From NCBI RefSeq assembly GCF_002412335.2, contig NZ_NXIB02000004.1, forward strand, positions 1 through 53,714: 53,714 nucleotides of DNA. The letters are read 5' to 3'. The DNA comes from Tychonema bourrellyi FEM_GT703. Its GTDB lineage: Bacteria > Cyanobacteriota > Cyanobacteriia > Cyanobacteriales > Microcoleaceae. The notes below the pieces were generated by a model, which ran no database searches, was not told the origin of the DNA, and saw nothing but the letters and a program-made list of their open reading frames with translations. Below are positions 6,620 to 53,552 of this stretch, piece by piece (the stretch's first letter is position 1; every line of letters starts with the position of its first letter). Made by a program: the position numbers and the translations under genes.

Positions 6620-6703
6620 TACTAACTCAAAAAAAAGTTGGCTGCAATCCTACAGCCAACCTCCTATTTATATCAAATCCGGTTGCATCGGTATTGTTCA
6701 AAC

Positions 6704-6748
6704 AGTCAACAGTCAACAGTCAACAGTCAACAGTCAACAGTCAACAGT
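6704..6748. repeat. STRR: AACAGTC heptamer array
   Basis: About six tandem copies of the heptamer AACAGTC lie directly past the stop codon of the outer-membrane-type gene. The same heptamer, or its complement, recurs at 21424-21478, 23417-23450, 50985-51054 and 52138-52231. Confidence 0.85.
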
Positions 6749-8472: not shown

Positions 8473-8567
8473 AATGGGCATTGGGCATTGGGCATTGGGC
8501 ATTGGGAATTGGGCATTGGGCATTGGGCATTGGGCATTGGGCATTGGGCATTGGGCATTGGGCATTG
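8473..8567. repeat. STRR: GGGCATT heptamer array
   Basis: Around thirteen tandem GGGCATT units directly abut the chosen start codon of the antenna-domain gene. On the minus strand each unit contains an ATG. All three frames of the array stay open, so copy-number change would alter which upstream ATG is in frame. Confidence 0.88.
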
Positions 8568-11740: not shown

Positions 11741-11796
11741 GTGAGGGGTGAAACCCTATGTGAATTCGCCAACACTCTCTTGGTAATTACCAATTC

Positions 11797-11929
11797 CCGA
11801 TGCCCAATGCCCAATTCCCAATTCCCCATTCCCGATGCCCAATTCCCGATGCCCCATGCCCAATTCCCAATTCCCGATGCCCAATTCCCAATGCCCAATT
11901 CCCAATTCCCCATGCCCAATTCCCAATAA
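11797..11929. repeat. STRR: mixed TGCCCAA / TTCCCAA heptamer array
   Basis: About nineteen heptamers of the types ATGCCCA, ATTCCCA and ATTCCCG alternate irregularly next to the 3' end of the following minus-strand gene. The mixed order suggests repeated slippage and recombination of two variants. Confidence 0.87.
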
Positions 11930-15322: not shown

Positions 15323-15380
15323 CTATTTTTAACTTCACTCTTATTGAGAACCGCTATATGTCTCAACCCAAAACTTGCAG

Positions 15381-17315
15381 ATGCAAAATAGTTTGAAAAC
15401 GCGATCGACTTACTGGCAAATCTTACCTTACATCCAGCAGCAAAAAGGAACCATCGCCAAAGCATTAGTTTGCACCCTCGGATTTACTATATTTTGGCCG
15501 ATAATGGCGTGGCTGATTGGCGAAACAGCATCAAAATTTGTAGGTACTGGAGATTTTAAAGGATTCACTAAACTTGCCGCAGCCAGTGCAATTATATTTC
15601 TGATTCGTAGCATCATTCAGTACGGCCAAGATACGCTAATGGCAAAAGCAGCTTTAACTATTGCTTTAGAAATTCGCAAAAAAGTTTATACGCACTTACA
15701 AAAGCTCAATATCGGCTACTTTGAAACTGCCCAAACGGGAGATTTATCCTACCGATTAACTGAAGATATTGACCGCATTGGCGAAGTTATAAATAAATTT
15801 TTCCATCAATTTATTCCTTCTATTTTACAGCTAATTGTGATCATGGGATATATGATTTATCTCAACTGGCAATTAACTTTAGGTGCATTAATCATTATAC
15901 CGCTGATGGCATTACTAATTAGCTGGTTTGGCGAGAAATTGCTCAGATACTCGCGGGAAAGTCAAGATCGGATCTCTGATTTATCTTCTTTGCTGACAGA
16001 AGTATTTAGTGGAATTCGTTTAATTAAAGCATTTGTGGCTGAAGATTATGAAATTGCTCGTTTTGCGGAAGAAGCAGAAAAAAATCGTCGCGCTAAGTAT
16101 TTATCAGAACGCATCAAGGCGCTTCAATTTATTGTAGTTGGCTTTCCAGAAGCTGTTAGTATAATTTTGCTATTTTTGCTGGGAGGTTGGCAAATTGAGC
16201 AGGGTAATTTGACTGGTTCTCAGTTTATTAGTTATATCGCAGGAGCGGCTCTTTTGATCGATCCGATCGCAACTACTACTGCTAATTACGGTGATTTCAA
16301 GCAGGGAGAGGCTTCTAGCGATCGCATTTTTGAACTATTGGCAATTCTACCAACCGTAGTTGAAAAGCCGGGGGCGCTTGAACTTCCCCACGTTACCGGA
16401 AAAGTCGAATACCGCAATATTAATTTTGCTTACCCCCCTCAATCCCCCCTTGATAAGGGGGGAAAAGAGCCTCAATCCCCCCTTTATAAAGGGGGAAAAG
16501 AGCCTCAATCCCCCATTGATAAGGGGGGAAAAGAGCCTCAATCCCCCATTGATAAGGGGGGAAAAGAGCCTCAACCCCCCCTTTATAAGGGGGGAAAAGA
16601 GCCTCAACCCCCCCTTGATAAGGGGGGGCAAGGGGGGGTTCCCATTTTGCAAAATATGAGTTTACTGGCACTTCCCGGAGAAATGATTGCCCTTGTGGGT
16701 GCATCCGGTGCCGGGAAAACTACTTTAGTAAACTTGTTACCAAGATTTTATGATCCGCAAGCTGGACAAGTTTTAATTGATGGGATTGATGTTCAAGATG
16801 TGACATTAAATACGCTGCGGCGACAAATCGGGATTGTGCCGCAGGAAACTATTTTATTTTCGGGGACAATTGCTCAAAATATTGCTTTTGGGCGATCGTA
16901 TTATGAACTGAAAGATGTTGAAAAAGCGGCGGAAATTGCTAACGCTCATCAATTTATTAGTGAGTTTCCCGACGGTTATCAAACTTGGGTTGGGGAAAGG
17001 GGTGTCAACTTATCTGGTGGTCAAAAACAAAGAATTGCGATCGCCCGTGCGGTGTTGTTGAATCCGCGAATTTTGATTCTCGATGAAGCGACATCGGCTC
17101 TAGATTCGGAATCGGAAGCTTTGGTACAGGAAGCATTGGAAAGATTGATGCAAGACAGGACTGTGTTTATTATCGCTCACCGTTTGGCGACTGTGCGGAA
17201 GGCTGACAGAATTTTAGTTTTGGAAAAAGGGAGAGTTGTGGAGTCGGGTACCCATGAGGAATTGCTCGAAAAAGGCGATCGTTATGCTCGTTATTATGCT
17301 CAGCAATTCAGTTAG
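15381..17315 (+). CDS. MsbA-type ABC exporter (fused permease and ATPase)
   Basis: This half-size exporter has a six-helix membrane domain (about residues 20-320) and a nucleotide-binding domain. Motifs are the A-loop region NINFAYPP, Walker A GASGAGKTT, Q-loop GIVPQETILF, signature NLSGGQKQR, Walker B ILILDEATSALD and the H-loop IIAHRLAT. Dimers of this family flip lipids, glycolipids or peptides; no clue here gives the substrate. An insertion of about 65 residues made of six Pro-Gln-Ser-Pro-Leu-type 11-residue units falls directly after the A-loop, where normal proteins have only a few residues. I chose the ATG at 15381; a TTG lies two codons upstream. The gene lacks an obvious operon partner. 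Confidence 0.92.
   Translation: MQNSLKTRSTYWQILPYIQQQKGTIAKALVCTLGFTIFWPIMAWLIGETASKFVGTGDFKGFTKLAAASAIIFLIRSIIQYGQDTLMAKAALTIALEIRKKVYTHLQKLNIGYFETAQTGDLSYRLTEDIDRIGEVINKFFHQFIPSILQLIVIMGYMIYLNWQLTLGALIIIPLMALLISWFGEKLLRYSRESQDRISDLSSLLTEVFSGIRLIKAFVAEDYEIARFAEEAEKNRRAKYLSERIKALQFIVVGFPEAVSIILLFLLGGWQIEQGNLTGSQFISYIAGAALLIDPIATTTANYGDFKQGEASSDRIFELLAILPTVVEKPGALELPHVTGKVEYRNINFAYPPQSPLDKGGKEPQSPLYKGGKEPQSPIDKGGKEPQSPIDKGGKEPQPPLYKGGKEPQPPLDKGGQGGVPILQNMSLLALPGEMIALVGASGAGKTTLVNLLPRFYDPQAGQVLIDGIDVQDVTLNTLRRQIGIVPQETILFSGTIAQNIAFGRSYYELKDVEKAAEIANAHQFISEFPDGYQTWVGERGVNLSGGQKQRIAIARAVLLNPRILILDEATSALDSESEALVQEALERLMQDRTVFIIAHRLATVRKADRILVLEKGRVVESGTHEELLEKGDRYARYYAQQFS
16437..16639. repeat. 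Six in-frame 33-bp repeats inside the ABC exporter gene
   Basis: Each 33-bp unit has the form CCTCAATCCCCCCTTGATAA followed by GGGGGGAAAAGAG. It encodes Pro-Gln-Ser-Pro-Leu-Asp-Lys-Gly-Gly-Lys-Glu with small variations. Because 33 is a multiple of three, copy number can change without a frameshift. The array is related to the intergenic C/G-run palindromes of this genome. Confidence 0.92.
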
Positions 17316-17562
17316 TTAAAGTAAATAGGACCGATCGACTCCGCCCAAGAAACCGGGTTTTATCTAAACAGAGTGTCATAAGTTATTACTGATTAGTAAT
17401 TAGTAATTAGTAATTCTCACTCTGCTCTTCCTCTGTGTTCTCTGTGCTCTCTGCGGTAAAAAAATCCGATCCAACCTTAAAGGAGATGACTCAGAACCCA
17501 CTGTTCATTCTTTACAGCAAGGCTTAAAAAACAAATTAGGATGCTTGCTAGTGTCCCATTTT
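17316..17562. other. Convergent intergenic region with minor repeats
   Basis: No gene is seen between the two convergent stop codons. It holds a GAAACCGGGTTTT half-element (near 17350), AGTAATT repeats (near 17395), and a CTCTGTGTTCTCTGTGCTCT stretch of the kind scattered in cyanobacterial genomes. Confidence 0.6.
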
Positions 17563-20049
17563 TCAGTGAATAACTTGTTGGCGTAGGGGAATCTGAATCA
17601 CGAACTCCGTTCCTTTCCCGATCGTAGAAAAACACTTGAGCTTACCACCATGTTTTTCCGTGATGATTTGATAACTGATAGACATCCCCATACCAGTCCC
17701 TTTTCCTACAGGCTTGGTGGTAAAAAACGGATCGAAAATGCGTTGCTGAATCTGTTCGGACATACCAACACCGTTGTCAGCGATCGCAATTTCTATCCAC
17801 TCAGCATCGATCGGTGACGTGCGAATCCTAATCTCCCCCGGATTAGCTTCCAGTTGCTCATAGGTTTTCTCACTACCGCTTTCTTCGAGGGCATCGATCG
17901 CATTTGCCAGAATATTCATCAGCACCTGGTTGAGTGGTCCAGGGTAGCACTCAGCGTAAGGTAGGAGCAGGTTGTAATCCTTAATTACCTTAATCTCTGG
18001 GAAATCGCCTTTGGCTTTGAGGCGATGTCCCAAAATCAGGAGAGTGCTGTCAATCCCTTCGTGAATATCGACGGTTTTCAAGTCAGCTTCCTCAAGGCGG
18101 GAGAAGTTGCGTAATGAGAGTACAATCTGACGAATGCGATCGGTCCCCATCTTCATCGAATCCAGTATTTTCGGTAAGTCTGTCTGCAAAAATTCTAAAT
18201 CGATGTCATCCACCATAGCTTGAATATCAGGGGACGTATTTGGGTTCTGCTGCTGATAAAGTTCAATGAGAGCCATCAGATTCTGGGTATACTCCCGCAA
18301 AGGCCTCAGATTGCCATGAATGAAATTAACGGGGTTATTGATTTCATGGGCGACCCCAGCCACTAACTGCCCTAAACTCGACATTTTTTCTGCCTGAACC
18401 AGTTGCATTTGGGCCTGTTGCAACTCCAGCAGAGTGCGTTCCACCTGCTCTCGCGCTTCATTAATAGCAGCAATTTGGGGCAGACTGGTCCAACAGGCGA
18501 TCGCCACTCCCACATAAGCCACCGTCACTAACAAAATGCTAAACAACGCCACATATTGCCCCACACCCACCCGATCTAAACCCGCTCTCACCCACCACCC
18601 AATGCTCAGCGCACTGCACACTAAACCAATTAAGATTGTTACCTGAAATGCCAACCAATCTGTTGTGCCAGTATGAGATTGCCGATGATACCTTTGATAC
18701 CGTTGCATCCACCCATCGGGATGGAATAAGGAGAAATTCAGGCGAGGTAATCGAGTGCCCGCCATGCCAATCAGCCAAGGTAAGAGTAAGCCAATGGCTA
18801 AGTCCTGGTAGCCCCATGCCAAGCCGCCCACCACCAACACAGTCGCTTCCATGCCAAAGAAACCCAGGGACCACCAGGGCCATCGAGCTTCTGGTCGTCG
18901 CCGACCGACCCACTCACCTAAATGAATTGCCATCATCGAACTCAGGTAGCCTGTACCAGTCACCATCACCACCCGTGCGACATCGCCCCATCCCAGGCAA
19001 ATGAGACTCAGCCCAAGGGTAAAAATCAAACTGGGTTCGAGCACTCCTCGGGGAGACAGCACGGCAAACACCGGTGGTAAGTAACGATCTTTTGCCAACT
19101 GATATAAAATCCGGGGACTGACAGAAACAGCAGTCGCAGAGCTCAGCAGACACCCTGACGCAATCAGAAAAGTGACAAGGGCGGGGGCGAAGGTGCCCCA
19201 GAAGGGTTGGGTAGCTGCCACTAGATGAAGATAGGCGCTATCCCCTAAGCCAGGATCTGTCGCTAACCGCATTAAAACCCACGATCCACCGAGATAGACG
19301 ATCGGAATCAATCCAGTCATTACCTGCAAGCACCGGAGGGTAACGCGGGGTTGGTAGCTATCGGCCACAAAGGCAGAAGCACTCTCGCCACCATAAACCG
19401 CATAGACGGCGATAAAGAACCATTTCATCCAATCCATCGCAGAAATGCCTACTCCCAGATCCGGCAGTAGCCCTGGGCTAGCGGGAGTCAAACTTAACCA
19501 AGCTATGCCTTGAAGACAAAAGGTGAGGAGAAACCCGATCGCCGGAAATACAAAGAAAGAGTGTAAAATGCCTAGTGTGCGAGTTCCACTAAAAGCAACG
19601 ATAAAGGGTAGCACGGTAAACCCAATTCTGAGTAGGGTTTCTGGACAAGTAATGCCCAGTGGAGCCAGATTCACCTTAATTAAATCGGTCAGAATAATCG
19701 CATTCATGGGTGGAACAGATATCCAGCCGAGCAAGTAGCCGATCGCCCCATAGCGAGCCAAGTTTGGGAAATGGTGGAGCAAGCGGGTAGTATAGTTTGG
19801 GGTGCCCCCAGCGACATCTGGGAAATAGGTTCCTAACCGCTTAACTTGCAGGTTGAGCATCATGCCAATGATTGTTCCCGGCAACCAAACCCAAATCGCC
19901 TGGGGACCTAGCGCAGCATTCATCCCAGGCGCAGTCCCTAACCATAAAAGCAACCCACTAAAGCCAAACCCCCAGGTTTCTGGTGAAGAAAGACTCCGAG
20001 GTAAGGCTGGTATGGAAACCGGATCGCGATTCATGGTTAATTCTCTCAT
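17563..20049 (-). CDS. Histidine kinase fused to an APC permease-like membrane domain
   Basis: This 828-residue protein joins two modules. Residues about 20-430 look like an amino acid/polyamine/organocation permease with about 12 membrane helices (for example LLLWLGTAPGMNAALGPQAI, FFIAVYAVYGGESASAFVAD). Two more helices follow (about 465-520). A helix with QQAQMQLVQAEKMSSLG leads to an H-box GVAHEINNPVNF with His568, N-box LMNILANAIDAL, G1 ADNGVGM, F-box FDPFFTTK and G2 GKGTGMGMS. So it should autophosphorylate and probably senses a transported or bound solute. The ATG overlaps the TGA of the upstream DppB-like permease gene (ATGA), which indicates translational coupling. No response regulator is adjacent. 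Domain fusions of this type are known for SSS-family kinases such as CbrA; an APC version is unusual. Confidence 0.88.
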   Translation of the reverse strand: MRELTMNRDPVSIPALPRSLSSPETWGFGFSGLLLWLGTAPGMNAALGPQAIWVWLPGTIIGMMLNLQVKRLGTYFPDVAGGTPNYTTRLLHHFPNLARYGAIGYLLGWISVPPMNAIILTDLIKVNLAPLGITCPETLLRIGFTVLPFIVAFSGTRTLGILHSFFVFPAIGFLLTFCLQGIAWLSLTPASPGLLPDLGVGISAMDWMKWFFIAVYAVYGGESASAFVADSYQPRVTLRCLQVMTGLIPIVYLGGSWVLMRLATDPGLGDSAYLHLVAATQPFWGTFAPALVTFLIASGCLLSSATAVSVSPRILYQLAKDRYLPPVFAVLSPRGVLEPSLIFTLGLSLICLGWGDVARVVMVTGTGYLSSMMAIHLGEWVGRRRPEARWPWWSLGFFGMEATVLVVGGLAWGYQDLAIGLLLPWLIGMAGTRLPRLNFSLFHPDGWMQRYQRYHRQSHTGTTDWLAFQVTILIGLVCSALSIGWWVRAGLDRVGVGQYVALFSILLVTVAYVGVAIACWTSLPQIAAINEAREQVERTLLELQQAQMQLVQAEKMSSLGQLVAGVAHEINNPVNFIHGNLRPLREYTQNLMALIELYQQQNPNTSPDIQAMVDDIDLEFLQTDLPKILDSMKMGTDRIRQIVLSLRNFSRLEEADLKTVDIHEGIDSTLLILGHRLKAKGDFPEIKVIKDYNLLLPYAECYPGPLNQVLMNILANAIDALEESGSEKTYEQLEANPGEIRIRTSPIDAEWIEIAIADNGVGMSEQIQQRIFDPFFTTKPVGKGTGMGMSISYQIITEKHGGKLKCFSTIGKGTEFVIQIPLRQQVIH

Positions 20050-21083
20050 TTCAAATCTTCCAATTTAATCCTCGGATCGATCGCCTTCAGCAACAAATCC
20101 GCCAACAAATTACCAATAATCAACATCGCAGAACCCATCATCAAAGTCGCCATGACTAAATACAAATCTTGATTATTCACAGCATCCAGAGTCAGTTTCC
20201 CCAAACCAGGCCAATTAAAGAACAGTTCAGCAATAAATGCACCACTCAACAAACTAGCAAACTCAAAACCTAATAGCGTAATCAATGGATTAACCGCATT
20301 CCGTAAAGCGTGAATATAAATTACTCGATTTTCCGGCAAACCTTTCGCCCGCGCTGTCCTGATGTAATCTTGACGCAGTACATCCAATAATTGTCCCCGC
20401 ATCAATCTTTGTAAACCTGCAAAACCAGTTAGACTCAAGGCGACTGTGGGCAAAATTAAGTGCCAGCCGTAATCCATGATTTGACCCCACCAAGGTAAGT
20501 CTGCATGGTCAATACTGGTCATTCCTCCTACTGGAAATAGAGGCGATGTATTCTGGGCGAAAAATAGCAGCAGCAAGGCCATGATAAAGCTGGGAAATCC
20601 TTGTCCTGTGTAGCTGACTACTTGCAAAATGCGATCGGCTGTTCGGTTTTGATTGACAGCGGCAATAATTCCCAAAGGAATCGCGATCGCCCAAGTTACA
20701 ATCAAAGAGGCGATCGCCATTAATAGCGTAGCCGGCACCCGTTCCCACAGCAGAGAAGCCACCGATCGCTGATACACAAAACTCGTACCAAAATTCCCCC
20801 GCGTTACAATTTGTTGCAACCACAGCCAATACTGCACAAAAGCAGGTTTATCTAAGCCGAATTGTTGTTCTAGTTGTTTAAGTGTTTCTGGCGAAATCTT
20901 CGGATTTTGGCTCAAAGTATCCAAGTAATTTCCCGGTGCAAGTTCAATAATTGCAAAGCAAAGAATTGATGCTAAAAATAGCGTTAACAGAGCCTGCAAG
21001 AGTCTCTTGAAAACATAGATAAATGTCTCGCCTCCAAATATAAAACTAAATATTCGTAAATTTTGGTTCAATTTAATAGTCAT
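20046..21083 (-). CDS. DppB/OppB-like ABC peptide transporter permease
   Basis: The 345-residue protein has six predicted helices and the inner-membrane permease signature region RQDYIRTARAKGLPENRVI, followed by HALRNAVNPLITLLG, typical of the DppB subunit. Such permeases import di- or oligopeptides, or nickel, with a DppC partner, two ATPases and a binding protein. None of these partners is next to it, so it is an orphan here or works with subunits encoded elsewhere. Its stop codon overlaps the start of the permease-kinase fusion gene by 4 bp. The two are therefore likely co-transcribed. Confidence 0.9.
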   Translation of the reverse strand: MTIKLNQNLRIFSFIFGGETFIYVFKRLLQALLTLFLASILCFAIIELAPGNYLDTLSQNPKISPETLKQLEQQFGLDKPAFVQYWLWLQQIVTRGNFGTSFVYQRSVASLLWERVPATLLMAIASLIVTWAIAIPLGIIAAVNQNRTADRILQVVSYTGQGFPSFIMALLLLFFAQNTSPLFPVGGMTSIDHADLPWWGQIMDYGWHLILPTVALSLTGFAGLQRLMRGQLLDVLRQDYIRTARAKGLPENRVIYIHALRNAVNPLITLLGFEFASLLSGAFIAELFFNWPGLGKLTLDAVNNQDLYLVMATLMMGSAMLIIGNLLADLLLKAIDPRIKLEDLK

Positions 21084-21110: not shown

Positions 21111-21427
21111 GTTGCCGTACCCTGAGCGTAGTCGAAGGGTTATTAGTTGGTTGTTATTATAGCCTTTCTCAGTTAGGTGAGGTACAGGGTAATGGGGCAT
21201 CGGGCATCGGGCATCGGGCATCGGGCATCGGGCATCGGGCATTACCAATTACTAATTACCTATTACCAATTCTCGATCGTACCTCATCTTTCTGAGAAAG
21301 GCTATAGTTGGTTGTTATTGGTTAGTTGTTATTGGTTAGTTGTTATTGGTTAGTTGTTATTGGTTATTGGTTAGTTATTATTGGTTACTGACAACTGACC
21401 CTTCGACTACGCTCAGGGTACGGCAAC
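21111..21427. repeat. Nested palindromic element with STRR core
   Basis: The outer 30-bp arms (GTTGCCGTACCCTGAGCGTA at 21111-21140, and its complement at 21398-21427) enclose a second inverted pair (ATAGCCTTTCTCAG...GAGGTAC at 21159-21185, complement 21279-21305). Inside that pair lies a GGGCATC heptamer array (21193-21241). TTAGTTGTTATTGG repeats fill 21306-21380, and an AACAGTC array follows to 21478. No gene is seen in 21084-21479. Confidence 0.85.
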
Positions 21428-21479: not shown

Positions 21480-21992
21480 CTAATACTCAACCAATGTCAC
21501 GATCGGCACATCCGGCAATTTATGCCTACCACCCAAGGCTAGCAATTCGATCGCAAAGGCAAAACCGACCAGTTCGCAGCCAGCTTGTTCTAACAACTCA
21601 ACTGTTGCTGCGGCCGTTCCGCCAGTGGCAATTAGATCGTCTACAATGAGGACTCGACTCCCCGGTGTCATCGCATCTTGGTGCATTTCCAGGCGATCGA
21701 CACCATACTCCAACTCGTACTCAGCGAAATAAACTGCTCCAGGCAATTTCCCCGGCTTGCGGACTGGAACAAAGCCCACTCCCATTTTATAAGCCAAAGG
21801 CGTGCCAAAGATAAAGCCCCGCGATTCCATGCCAACTATATAGTCAGGAGACATTTCAGAACACTTTTCGGCTAAACTGTCAATGGTGTAGCTCAGCCCT
21901 TGGGGGTTTCGCAGCAAAGTTGTAATATCTCGAAACATGATTCCCGGCTTCGGGAAATCAGGAATGTCGCGAATCAGAGATTTGAGATCCAT
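21480..21992 (-). CDS. apt: Adenine phosphoribosyltransferase
   Basis: Apt converts adenine and PRPP to AMP in purine salvage. The 170-residue protein matches the family along its whole length. The start [18 protein letters not shown] is followed by [10 protein letters not shown], and the PRPP-binding loop is [14 protein letters not shown]. No neighbour is functionally linked except, loosely, purB at 42.1 kb. Confidence 0.97.
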
Positions 21993-23393: not shown

Positions 23394-23455
23394 AAATTAG
23401 TTAGTAGTCCGTGGTTAGTTGACTGTTGACTGTTGACTGTTGACTGTTGACTAAC

Positions 23456-23531
23456 CAATGCCCAATGCCCAATGCCCCATGCCCAATGCCCCATGCCCAA
23501 TGCCCCATGCCCAATGCCCAATGCCCAATGC
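23456..23531. repeat. STRR: ATGCCCA/ATGCCCC heptamer array
   Basis: Eleven tandem heptamers follow a short run of GTTGACT heptamers (23417-23450). The array sits between the 3' ends of the convergent aspC and sigma factor genes. Confidence 0.88.
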
Positions 23532-23538
23532 CCACTGA

Positions 23539-51165: not shown

Positions 51166-52134
51166 ATGCAATTCAGTGTTATCAAACAGCGATCGATCTG
51201 GTGGAGTATTTCCGCCGCTATTATCCTAGCCGGCATAGTGTCAATGGCTATCTCTTGGACTCGTCCCGACATCCGCGCACCACTGCGGCCGAGTTTGGAC
51301 TTTATCGGCGGCACTAGGCTACAATTTGAACTCGACTGCACGAAACCAGAAAACTGTAAACCCATCGATCTTGCTGCTGTCCGCGAAGTGCTGGACACCC
51401 AAGGTTTAGCTGGTAGCAGCATTCAAGTTATCGGCAAAGAACAGCGGGGTATATCGCTACGCACGAAAACTTTGGATGTGGAAAAGCGGACTAAGTTGCA
51501 AACAGGTTTGAGCGAAAAAATAGGCGCTTTTTCTCCTCAATCCACTCAAATTGATACAGTTGGGCCTACCCTCGGCAAACAATTATTTACTTCTGGATTG
51601 TTGGCTTTATTGCTTTCCTTTGCTGGAATTACTACTTATCTGACATTCCGATTTCAGTTGGATTATGCCTTTTTTGCTTTCGTGGCTTTGTTTCACGATG
51701 TGTTAATTACCGTTGGTGTTTTCTCATTTTTGGGTCTAGTTCAAGGTGTAGAAGTTGACAGTTTATTTGTAGTAGCCCTCTTGACAATCATCGGTTTTTC
51801 TGTTAACGATACAGTGGTAATTTACGATCGCGTGCGAGAAGTAATAAAGCTAAATCCGGGACAGTCGATCGATCAAGTTGTCGATGATGCCGTGATGCAG
51901 ACCCTGGGAAGGTCAATTAACACGACGATGACAACGCTGCTGACATTGTTTTCCATATTTTTGTTTGGCGGTGAAACCCTCAAATACTTTGCTTTAGCTT
52001 TAATTGTCGGTTTTATTGCTGGTGCGTATTCAAGTATTTTCATTGCTAGTACGCTACTCGCTTGGTGGCGCAGTCGCACGGGTAACTCTATCCCAGTTCC
52101 TGTAGAAGCAATCAATCTATCTGATGAAGTTTAG
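51166..52134 (+). CDS. secF: Protein translocase subunit SecF
   Basis: The 322-residue protein shows [18 protein letters not shown] and [21 protein letters not shown]. The membrane signature is [28 protein letters not shown], split here at DTVV, and the last helices follow. It forms the SecDF complex with the upstream SecD. Confidence 0.97.
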
Positions 52135-52137
52135 TTA

Positions 52138-52348
52138 ACTGTTGACTGTTGACAGTTAACTGTTGACTGTTGACTGTTAACTGTTGACTGTTAACTGTTG
52201 ACTGTTGACTGTTAACTGTTGACTGTTAACTGACTAATAACAAATAACCAATAACAAATAACCAATAACAAATAACCAATCACCAATCACCAATAACCAA
52301 TAACAAATAACAAATAACCAATCACCAATCACCAATCACCAATAACTC
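52138..52348. repeat. STRR: TGTTGACTG heptamers then ATAACAA units
   Basis: A run of TGTTGACT/TGTTAACT heptamers (52138-52231) changes into AATAACAAATAACC and CACCAATCACCAAT repeats that run up to the next start codon. The array fills nearly the whole gap after secF. The GTG start of the following gene lies at its edge. Confidence 0.86.
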
Positions 52349-53446: not shown

Positions 53447-53552
53447 ATAGCCTTTCTCAGAAAGATGAGGTACGCTTCGGGCATAGGGCATAGGGCATAG
53501 GGCATAGGGCATAGGGCATAGGGCATACCTCACTTTTTCGAGAACCGCTATA
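53447..53552. repeat. Nested element with GGGCATA STRR core
   Basis: ATAGCCTTTCTCAGAAAGAT (left, 53447) and an imperfect complement ending CGAGAACCGCTATAG (right, about 53525-53552) bracket a seven-copy GGGCATA array. This is the same frame as the inner element at 21159-21305. Confidence 0.8.

Follow-up and report, generated by a model that had tools for sequence, protein, structure and literature searches.

Receptors that derive from transporters are few among the prokaryotic systems compared here: the SLC5-STAC kinases, one Amt kinase and the S-component fold. In CbrA, CrbS and RpuS, according to the portions of the reports consulted, an SLC5 domain is joined through STAC to a histidine kinase (PMC13022988, PMC5715377, PMC9100948), and the corresponding portions of two of these reports name such proteins in Pseudomonas, Vibrio and Sinorhizobium with kinase outputs only (PMC5715377, PMC9100948). 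KsAmt5 is described as an ammonium sensor kinase of Kuenenia with an Amt domain (PMC5764959, PMC8534201), and LysP as interacting with the regulator CadC (PMC12764776). An account of transceptors, as far as its consulted sections go, calls them rare and excludes CbrA because of STAC (PMC11109136). In the open-licence literature we found neither an APC-domain kinase nor an APC-domain GGDEF protein described. Here we analyzed 53,714 nucleotides of Tychonema bourrellyi FEM_GT703 (contig NZ_NXIB02000004.1, positions 1 to 53,714 of the forward strand; this whole stretch is referred to as the window), in which a gene on the reverse strand encodes a histidine kinase of 828 residues whose membrane part belongs to the APC family of amino acid permeases. 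We consider it likely that this membrane part is a LeuT-fold transceptor domain reused as a ligand sensor for the output fused to it, which would make the protein a receptor kinase. The gene and its parts are as follows.

17563..20049, minus strand: APC-domain histidine kinase, 828 residues (open reading frame, Pfam), with an alternative start, Met6, at 20034 (homologue starts)
18478..20049, minus strand: putative APC/LeuT-fold sensor domain, residues ~1-524 (Pfam, predicted model, Foldseek, hydropathy)
18376..18477, minus strand: junction after the WTSLPQ motif, residues ~525-558 (DSSP of the full-length model; A518, T521 and Q525 invariant in the alignment)
18088..18375, minus strand: HisKA / DHp, residues 559-654, with phosphoacceptor His568 (Pfam; H568 invariant)
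17581..17937, minus strand: HATPase_c, residues 705-823 (Pfam, 86.1 bits)

We assigned the membrane part by profile and by fold. Two APC-family Pfam models match the window protein above their curated cut-offs, AA_permease_2 (PF13520) over residues 42-403 with 65.8 bits against a cut-off of 27, and AA_permease (PF00324) over residues 31-357 with 27.9 bits against 24.6. In Pfam, with E values up to 1, only APC models match the membrane part and none for SLC5/SSS does, nor did Pfam return an ammonium transporter domain in the protein. The AlphaFold model of the domain alone has a mean predicted local distance difference test score (pLDDT) of 86.3 and a predicted template modelling score (pTM) of 0.86; the full-length protein, modelled as one chain, has 82.1 and 0.64, respectively. 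Among the best 50 of 548 Foldseek matches to the domain model, AdiC, LAT1 and y+LAT1 lead, KimA, NKCC1, ApcT and a bacterial CAT homologue also appear, TMt reaches 0.75, E values for AdiC, LAT1, y+LAT1 and ApcT run from 8.6e-9 to 4.2e-6, and there is no SSS protein. By these matches the predicted model, which is not a solved structure, has a LeuT-type fold. The full-length model retrieved kinases first and y+LAT1 and LAT1 next. A phmmer search of the Protein Data Bank (PDB) with the single domain returned nothing useful; only a profile built from the 44 full-length domains described below reached LysP (9eyd, E 5.6e-6), the one other row being COX7a at E 0.65, a chance match. A chance match or an annotation artefact as the source of the APC assignment was rejected because of the fold match and the 44-member family.

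Judging by DSSP and hydropathy, the 12-helix core is probably followed by two further helices past residue 436. A single helix spans residues 500-601 of the full-length model and runs from the last membrane helix through WTSLPQ into the kinase. In LysP, the first and sixth transmembrane helices (TM1 and TM6) are described in the consulted part of the report as broken mid-helix (PMC12764776). In a simplified DSSP assignment, made without a control transporter model, helices 22-75 and 204-227 of the window protein are unbroken in both models.

The kinase half was recognized by Pfam, with HisKA at residues 559-654 scoring 33.1 bits (cut-off 26.9) and HATPase_c at residues 705-823 exceeding its cut-off of 26.4, and it carries H, N, G1, F and G2 boxes. 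Since H568, E569, N571, N712, N716, F776, T777, G786 and G788 are invariant across a 43-row alignment (A3), and D758, N759, G760 and G784 are kept in at least 90% of it, the boxes are judged from their sequence to be intact. The first-pass annotation had proposed an APC-like membrane part ahead of an intact kinase core in an 828-residue protein; reading frame, Pfam and alignment agree with it, and its worry that the membrane part might match no transporter family is answered by the AA_permease_2 score and the APC fold match. Nineteen paralogues of the kinase half occur in the same genome, with 46-66% identity over most of the length, and the partner regulator is therefore unreadable from the sequence. 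No response regulator adjoins the window kinase, the next gene being a convergent msbA-like exporter.

To place the domain in a family, the APC part alone was searched in 386 genomes of the same phylum, with at most three candidates scored per genome (a fourth copy in genome G099 turned up separately). The search gave 46 matches in 35 genomes. Forty-four were full length, each inside an open frame of 822-1194 residues, and the remaining two were fragments: the C-terminal part of the domain followed by a kinase at L169:2904-4367, a truncation or a remnant, and a short piece in L170. HisKA with HATPase_c follows the domain in 38 of the 44 and GGDEF with EAL in 6; a receiver match is present in 7. 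A scan of public genomes with two peptide motifs gave 228 relatives, from which we took the best 80. Every one of these 80 has a cyanobacterial title, and the design could miss divergent or noncyanobacterial members. Some records of this set duplicate genomes of the first search. Together the two sets hold 124 proteins with 118 distinct domains, at 121 loci, or 115 without identical domains. Sorted by output, 92 proteins have a kinase motif, 27 have GGDEF/EAL and 5 fall under other, namely two SpoIIE fusions (L111 and L126), one HisKA_2 protein (L107), a kinase with a frameshift (L095) and one protein truncated where its contig ends (L115). Among the 124 proteins there is no complete free-standing transporter copy.

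We then traced the outputs on a tree of 65 domains, from which the close relative L088 was left out as a near-copy of the window protein. The output class changed at least 4 times with all HisKA kinases merged, 8 times with hybrids kept apart and 12 times with kinase subclasses kept apart. GGDEF-EAL has a single origin and forms one clade, while SpoIIE stands in two places. The clearest recent swap sets L107 (HisKA_2) beside L048_5485 (HisKA), with end branches of 0.13 and 0.17 and an SH-aLRT value of 100. Judged from these sequences, the APC domain is a modular input ahead of HisKA or HisKA_2 kinases, hybrid kinases, GGDEF-EAL proteins and SpoIIE phosphatases. NF053774, an NCBIfam model for a TMAO permease, matches 39 of the 44 domains at E 0.001 or better; the window domain scores 21.7 bits with it, far under the cut-off of 690. 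Since Pfam transporter models give only weak matches or none to most members, it would not be surprising if these were annotated simply as kinases.

Two loci of the set deserve a separate remark. At L048:5485-14745, in the same genus, three tandem APC-kinase genes lie on one strand and are followed by a receiver-like gene. The nearest relative of the window protein in the 65-row tree, at L080:9998-11827, is 85% identical to it; its frame ends early inside the kinase, and kinase similarity goes on in the same frame beyond that end.

Selection and conservation bear on what the domain does. Between the window gene and L088, the ratio of nonsynonymous to synonymous substitution (dN/dS) is 0.031/0.135, or ~0.23, for the APC part and 0.052/0.200, or ~0.26, for the kinase, and both parts are thus under purifying selection. 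Many polar and aromatic residues of the domain are invariant over 46-75% identity. All 65 domains have W109, R313 and Q317, and 64 have D321; at position 222, in TM6, 62 domains carry E and 3 carry D; and GGTPNY stands unchanged at 81-86 in 56 of the 65. We take R313, Q317, D321, E222 and GGTPNY to be loop motifs of APC proteins. The TM1 string G-S/T-G-hydrophobic is the substrate motif of APC transporters; it occurs in none of the 65 domains within the first 65 residues, where the equivalent position is not fixed by alignment. TM1 positions 38, 39 and 42 vary among the domains, as would be expected if paralogues sense different things.

A degenerate membrane anchor without sensing, with specificity residing in PAS domains or in partner proteins, would fit the PAS match (PF00989) found in 34 of the 44 members. 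Pfam gives no PAS match in the window protein, however, nor in L060 or L074, and the purifying selection on the domain resembles that on the kinase, with many polar and aromatic residues invariant. We regard the anchor as improbable.

For pocket positions we used the LysP contact residues given in the consulted part of the structural report (PMC12764776), carried over through the profile alignment to 9eyd with an assumed PDB chain offset of 12 residues. The alignment is weak, and the correspondences serve as leads only. In it, LysP Trp105 corresponds to the invariant W109, Phe215 to Y216 (Tyr in 60 of 65 domains) and Gln218 to Y219 (60 of 65).

The domain might also be a true dual-function transceptor that still transports, with transport or occupancy controlling the kinase as is reported for CbrA, an explanation that overlaps with the sensor reading. 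The fold is complete and its loop motifs are conserved, and the SLC5 domain of CbrA is reported, in the portion of that work consulted, to mediate histidine uptake (PMC13022988). Against continued transport, the 386-genome search, within its limit of three candidates per genome, yielded no full-length copy as a free-standing transporter, and the position aligned with the coupling lysine holds Ala, Ser or Thr in every one of the 65 domains. Yet this lysine is not universal in APC proteins, and a permease of the Tychonema genome (in L165) appears by eye to be without it. On balance, we think it rather unlikely that the domain still transports.

Taken together, these data favor the sensor reading, in which a small molecule would bind in the former transport pocket, the likeliest candidates being an amino acid, an amine or a similar nutrient. 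Once in this central pocket, the ligand would shift the transporter fold and move the last membrane helix, which appears continuous via the WTSLPQ junction into the DHp kinase bundle; autophosphorylation at His568 would change, and the phosphate would pass to an unlinked response regulator. Beyond fold and fusion, each of these steps is inferred, including ligand binding by the domain, signalling rather than or besides transport, and coupling through the helix. Sensing of amino acids or peptides is possible.

Several observations weigh against this reading. At E 0.001, AA_permease_2 is matched by only 3 of the 44 members and AA_permease by 28. The junction helix has pLDDT values under 50 at 554-560 in the full-length model, and residues 451-530 are less confidently modelled in the domain model (block pLDDT 49-75). 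LysP contacts are only partly kept, with Phe215, Ser216 and Gln218 replaced by Tyr, mostly Ala and Tyr, and, in the same weak alignment, the proton-coupling Lys162 corresponds to A170, the Ala/Ser/Thr position mentioned above. If the pocket has ceased to bind, what is left would be a membrane anchor. With at most three candidates scored per genome, copies could have been missed, free-standing ones included. The output labels depend partly on regular expressions, and by the tree modularity beyond kinases amounts to few events, GGDEF-EAL once and SpoIIE and HisKA_2 in three proteins.

A broader form of the sensor reading is a cyanobacterial LeuT-fold receptor family without transport, in which the TM1 and TM6 hinges are remodelled, paralogue pockets serve different nutrients, and the domain is plugged into phosphorelay, cyclic di-GMP and PP2C-type signalling. 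We put this forward tentatively, as somewhat less probable than not; if true, a transporter fold has been turned into a general-purpose bacterial receptor.

The genes around the relatives offered some clues to outputs and ligands. A gene on the same strand lies within 400 bases downstream at 39 of 114 loci, and 13 of these genes have a receiver match. Nine of the 13 receiver genes are 3-46 bases away (L048, L066, L074, L092, L099, L124, L127, L142 and L158), six of them being 120-126 residues long. This arrangement supports an ordinary phosphorelay for some relatives. One gene family is convergent to 25 APC-GGDEF-EAL loci (L056, L059-L061, L063, L064, L105, L113 and others), and NF002748 identifies the one member scored as a histidine decarboxylase (532.9 bits, cut-off 305). 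In 10 APC-kinase loci, a caprolactamase/HyuA-like gene, under the cut-off of its model, lies downstream. The histidine decarboxylase neighbor is a possible clue to the ligand. We gave metabolic neighbors little weight in this respect because the GGDEF-EAL fusions form one clade and represent about one event.

We next consider the gene that precedes the kinase, with its surroundings.

20046..21083, minus strand: DppB-type ABC permease, 345 residues (Pfam), a neighbor not judged part of the system
21480..21992, minus strand: apt, adenine phosphoribosyltransferase, conserved upstream neighbor of dppB (NCBIfam, 240.1 bits)
17495..20045, no strand: part with no blastn counterpart in the relative G392 (L173), whose matches cover the flanks 15356-17494 and 20046-21079

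The dppB product has the permease domain (BPD_transp_1, 145.5 bits) and the N-terminal domain (49.2 bits) in Pfam. The kinase ATG overlaps the dppB stop, as the first-pass annotation had pointed out; the overlap, of four bases, is present in the DNA and recurs in L088, and an assembly artefact is for that reason unlikely. Kinase and permease could form one translationally coupled unit, the kinase sensing peptides or the activity of the permease, and the overlap in the window and L088 fits such a unit, as does one Limnothrix genome (L114, L171) in which both genes occur ~8.6 kb apart on opposite strands. Conservation of the adjacent dppB, which the first-pass annotation had proposed as a check on its coupling to a peptide permease, was not found. 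A dppB orthologue is adjacent in none of 41 sampled APC-fusion loci; one distant paralogue (33%) is ~6.9 kb off in L078. Among 80 named loci, dppB is adjacent only in L088. Some of the loci are short because of contig ends. Seen from the other side, dppB was found in 28 of the 29 genomes searched, own included, and an APC-domain match in 12 of the 29 genus genomes, with a window-type orthologue only in G000 and G404. We fetched 20 dppB contexts, those of G404 and of 19 among the 27 non-own dppB matches; apt is upstream in 19, the remaining one (L177) being a contig end, and the kinase stands beside dppB in G404 but not in the other 19. In G392, 226 unaligned bases replace the kinase stretch between two flanks that match the window. 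In G404, the only other genome with the pair, dppB is shorter by 47 codons through an in-frame loss, unless this is an assembly fault. For the nearest relative, the 47-codon loss is recorded at L186:5068-5958, apparently the same record as L088 (both contigs are 24,780 long), and the gene may be broken or misassembled.

Since G392 has the flanks without the kinase and dppB is widespread but rarely has the kinase beside it, the kinase was gained at the dppB spot, or lost there in relatives, and the four-base overlap is probably a by-product. The homologues L039 and L040, two of the nearest outside the pair of the window protein and L088, show no alignment before residue 6 of the window protein; translation may therefore begin at Met6, which lies 11 bases past the dppB stop. 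This later start and the 47-codon loss both speak against coupling. The first-pass annotation had also called the permease devoid of all its usual partners. By position this stands, the window contig (C216) having none of them, but not in the genome, which holds two SBP_bac_5 binding proteins on C99 and C224, an OppC-type permease (OppC_N) on C4 and oligo_HPY ATPases on C205 and C14; another DppB-like permease is encoded on C220. Since the other parts of an importer are scattered across the genome, the window dppB is not necessarily a functional orphan. On the neighborhoods, the relatives, the kinase-free flanks and the scattered importer parts, we rejected coupling to DppB; the adjacent dppB is probably a bystander of the kinase, and a single kinase-permease unit seems to us very improbable.

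The search for plasmid carriage gave no match. The msbA-like ABC exporter gene (15375-17315) contains an in-frame array of ~5.8 copies of a 33-base unit at 16437-16627, just before the ATPase domain; the alignment with L186 is interrupted over 16472-16601, and the copy number probably differs there. The reverse strand is likewise open over this array. Seven-base tandem repeat arrays, apparently mostly intergenic, lie at 25-62, 6701-6748, 8475-8567, 11785-11927, 21195-21242, 21314-21387, 23455-23534, 52134-52346 and 53479-53527.

Compared with known systems, the window protein resembles CbrA, CrbS and RpuS in having an N-terminal transporter domain and a histidine kinase on a single chain, and a LeuT-type fold is reported for CbrA, as predicted for the window domain. 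The CbrA type, however, has an SLC5 (SSS) domain and a STAC linker, whereas the window domain is of the APC family and the ~33 residues between WTSLPQ (525) and HisKA (559), a predicted helix, leave no room for the four-helix STAC domain, as judged by length without a STAC profile. Because the membrane part matches APC and not SLC5 and there is no room for STAC, the APC family resembles CbrA in its general plan but falls outside the SLC5-STAC kinases. KsAmt5 likewise carries a transporter domain turned receptor on a histidine kinase, but that domain belongs to the ammonium transporter family and binds ammonium, unlike the window domain, and presumably has a different fold. LysP, the nearest APC protein of solved structure in the profile search, transports lysine and is separate from its regulator CadC, while the window protein is a fusion. 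AdiC, ApcT and LAT1 have the fold in common with the window domain; they are transporters, whereas every full-length copy of the window-type domain among those examined is fused to a signalling output. MASE-type membrane sensor domains, as the APC domain does, provide the input ahead of signalling enzymes such as GGDEF-EAL; they are smaller and not LeuT-fold. A second LeuT-fold sensor family, ahead of several unrelated outputs in many cyanobacteria, would amount to a natural experiment in the ways signalling can be driven by an alternating-access fold, and its members are candidate nutrient receptors in these bacteria. The wider find is a putative modular APC-fold sensor domain. The APC-type transceptor kinase of the first-pass annotation was right in its APC-kinase half, an APC-domain kinase that belongs to a widespread family, and that wider family is a better find than the coupling first proposed.

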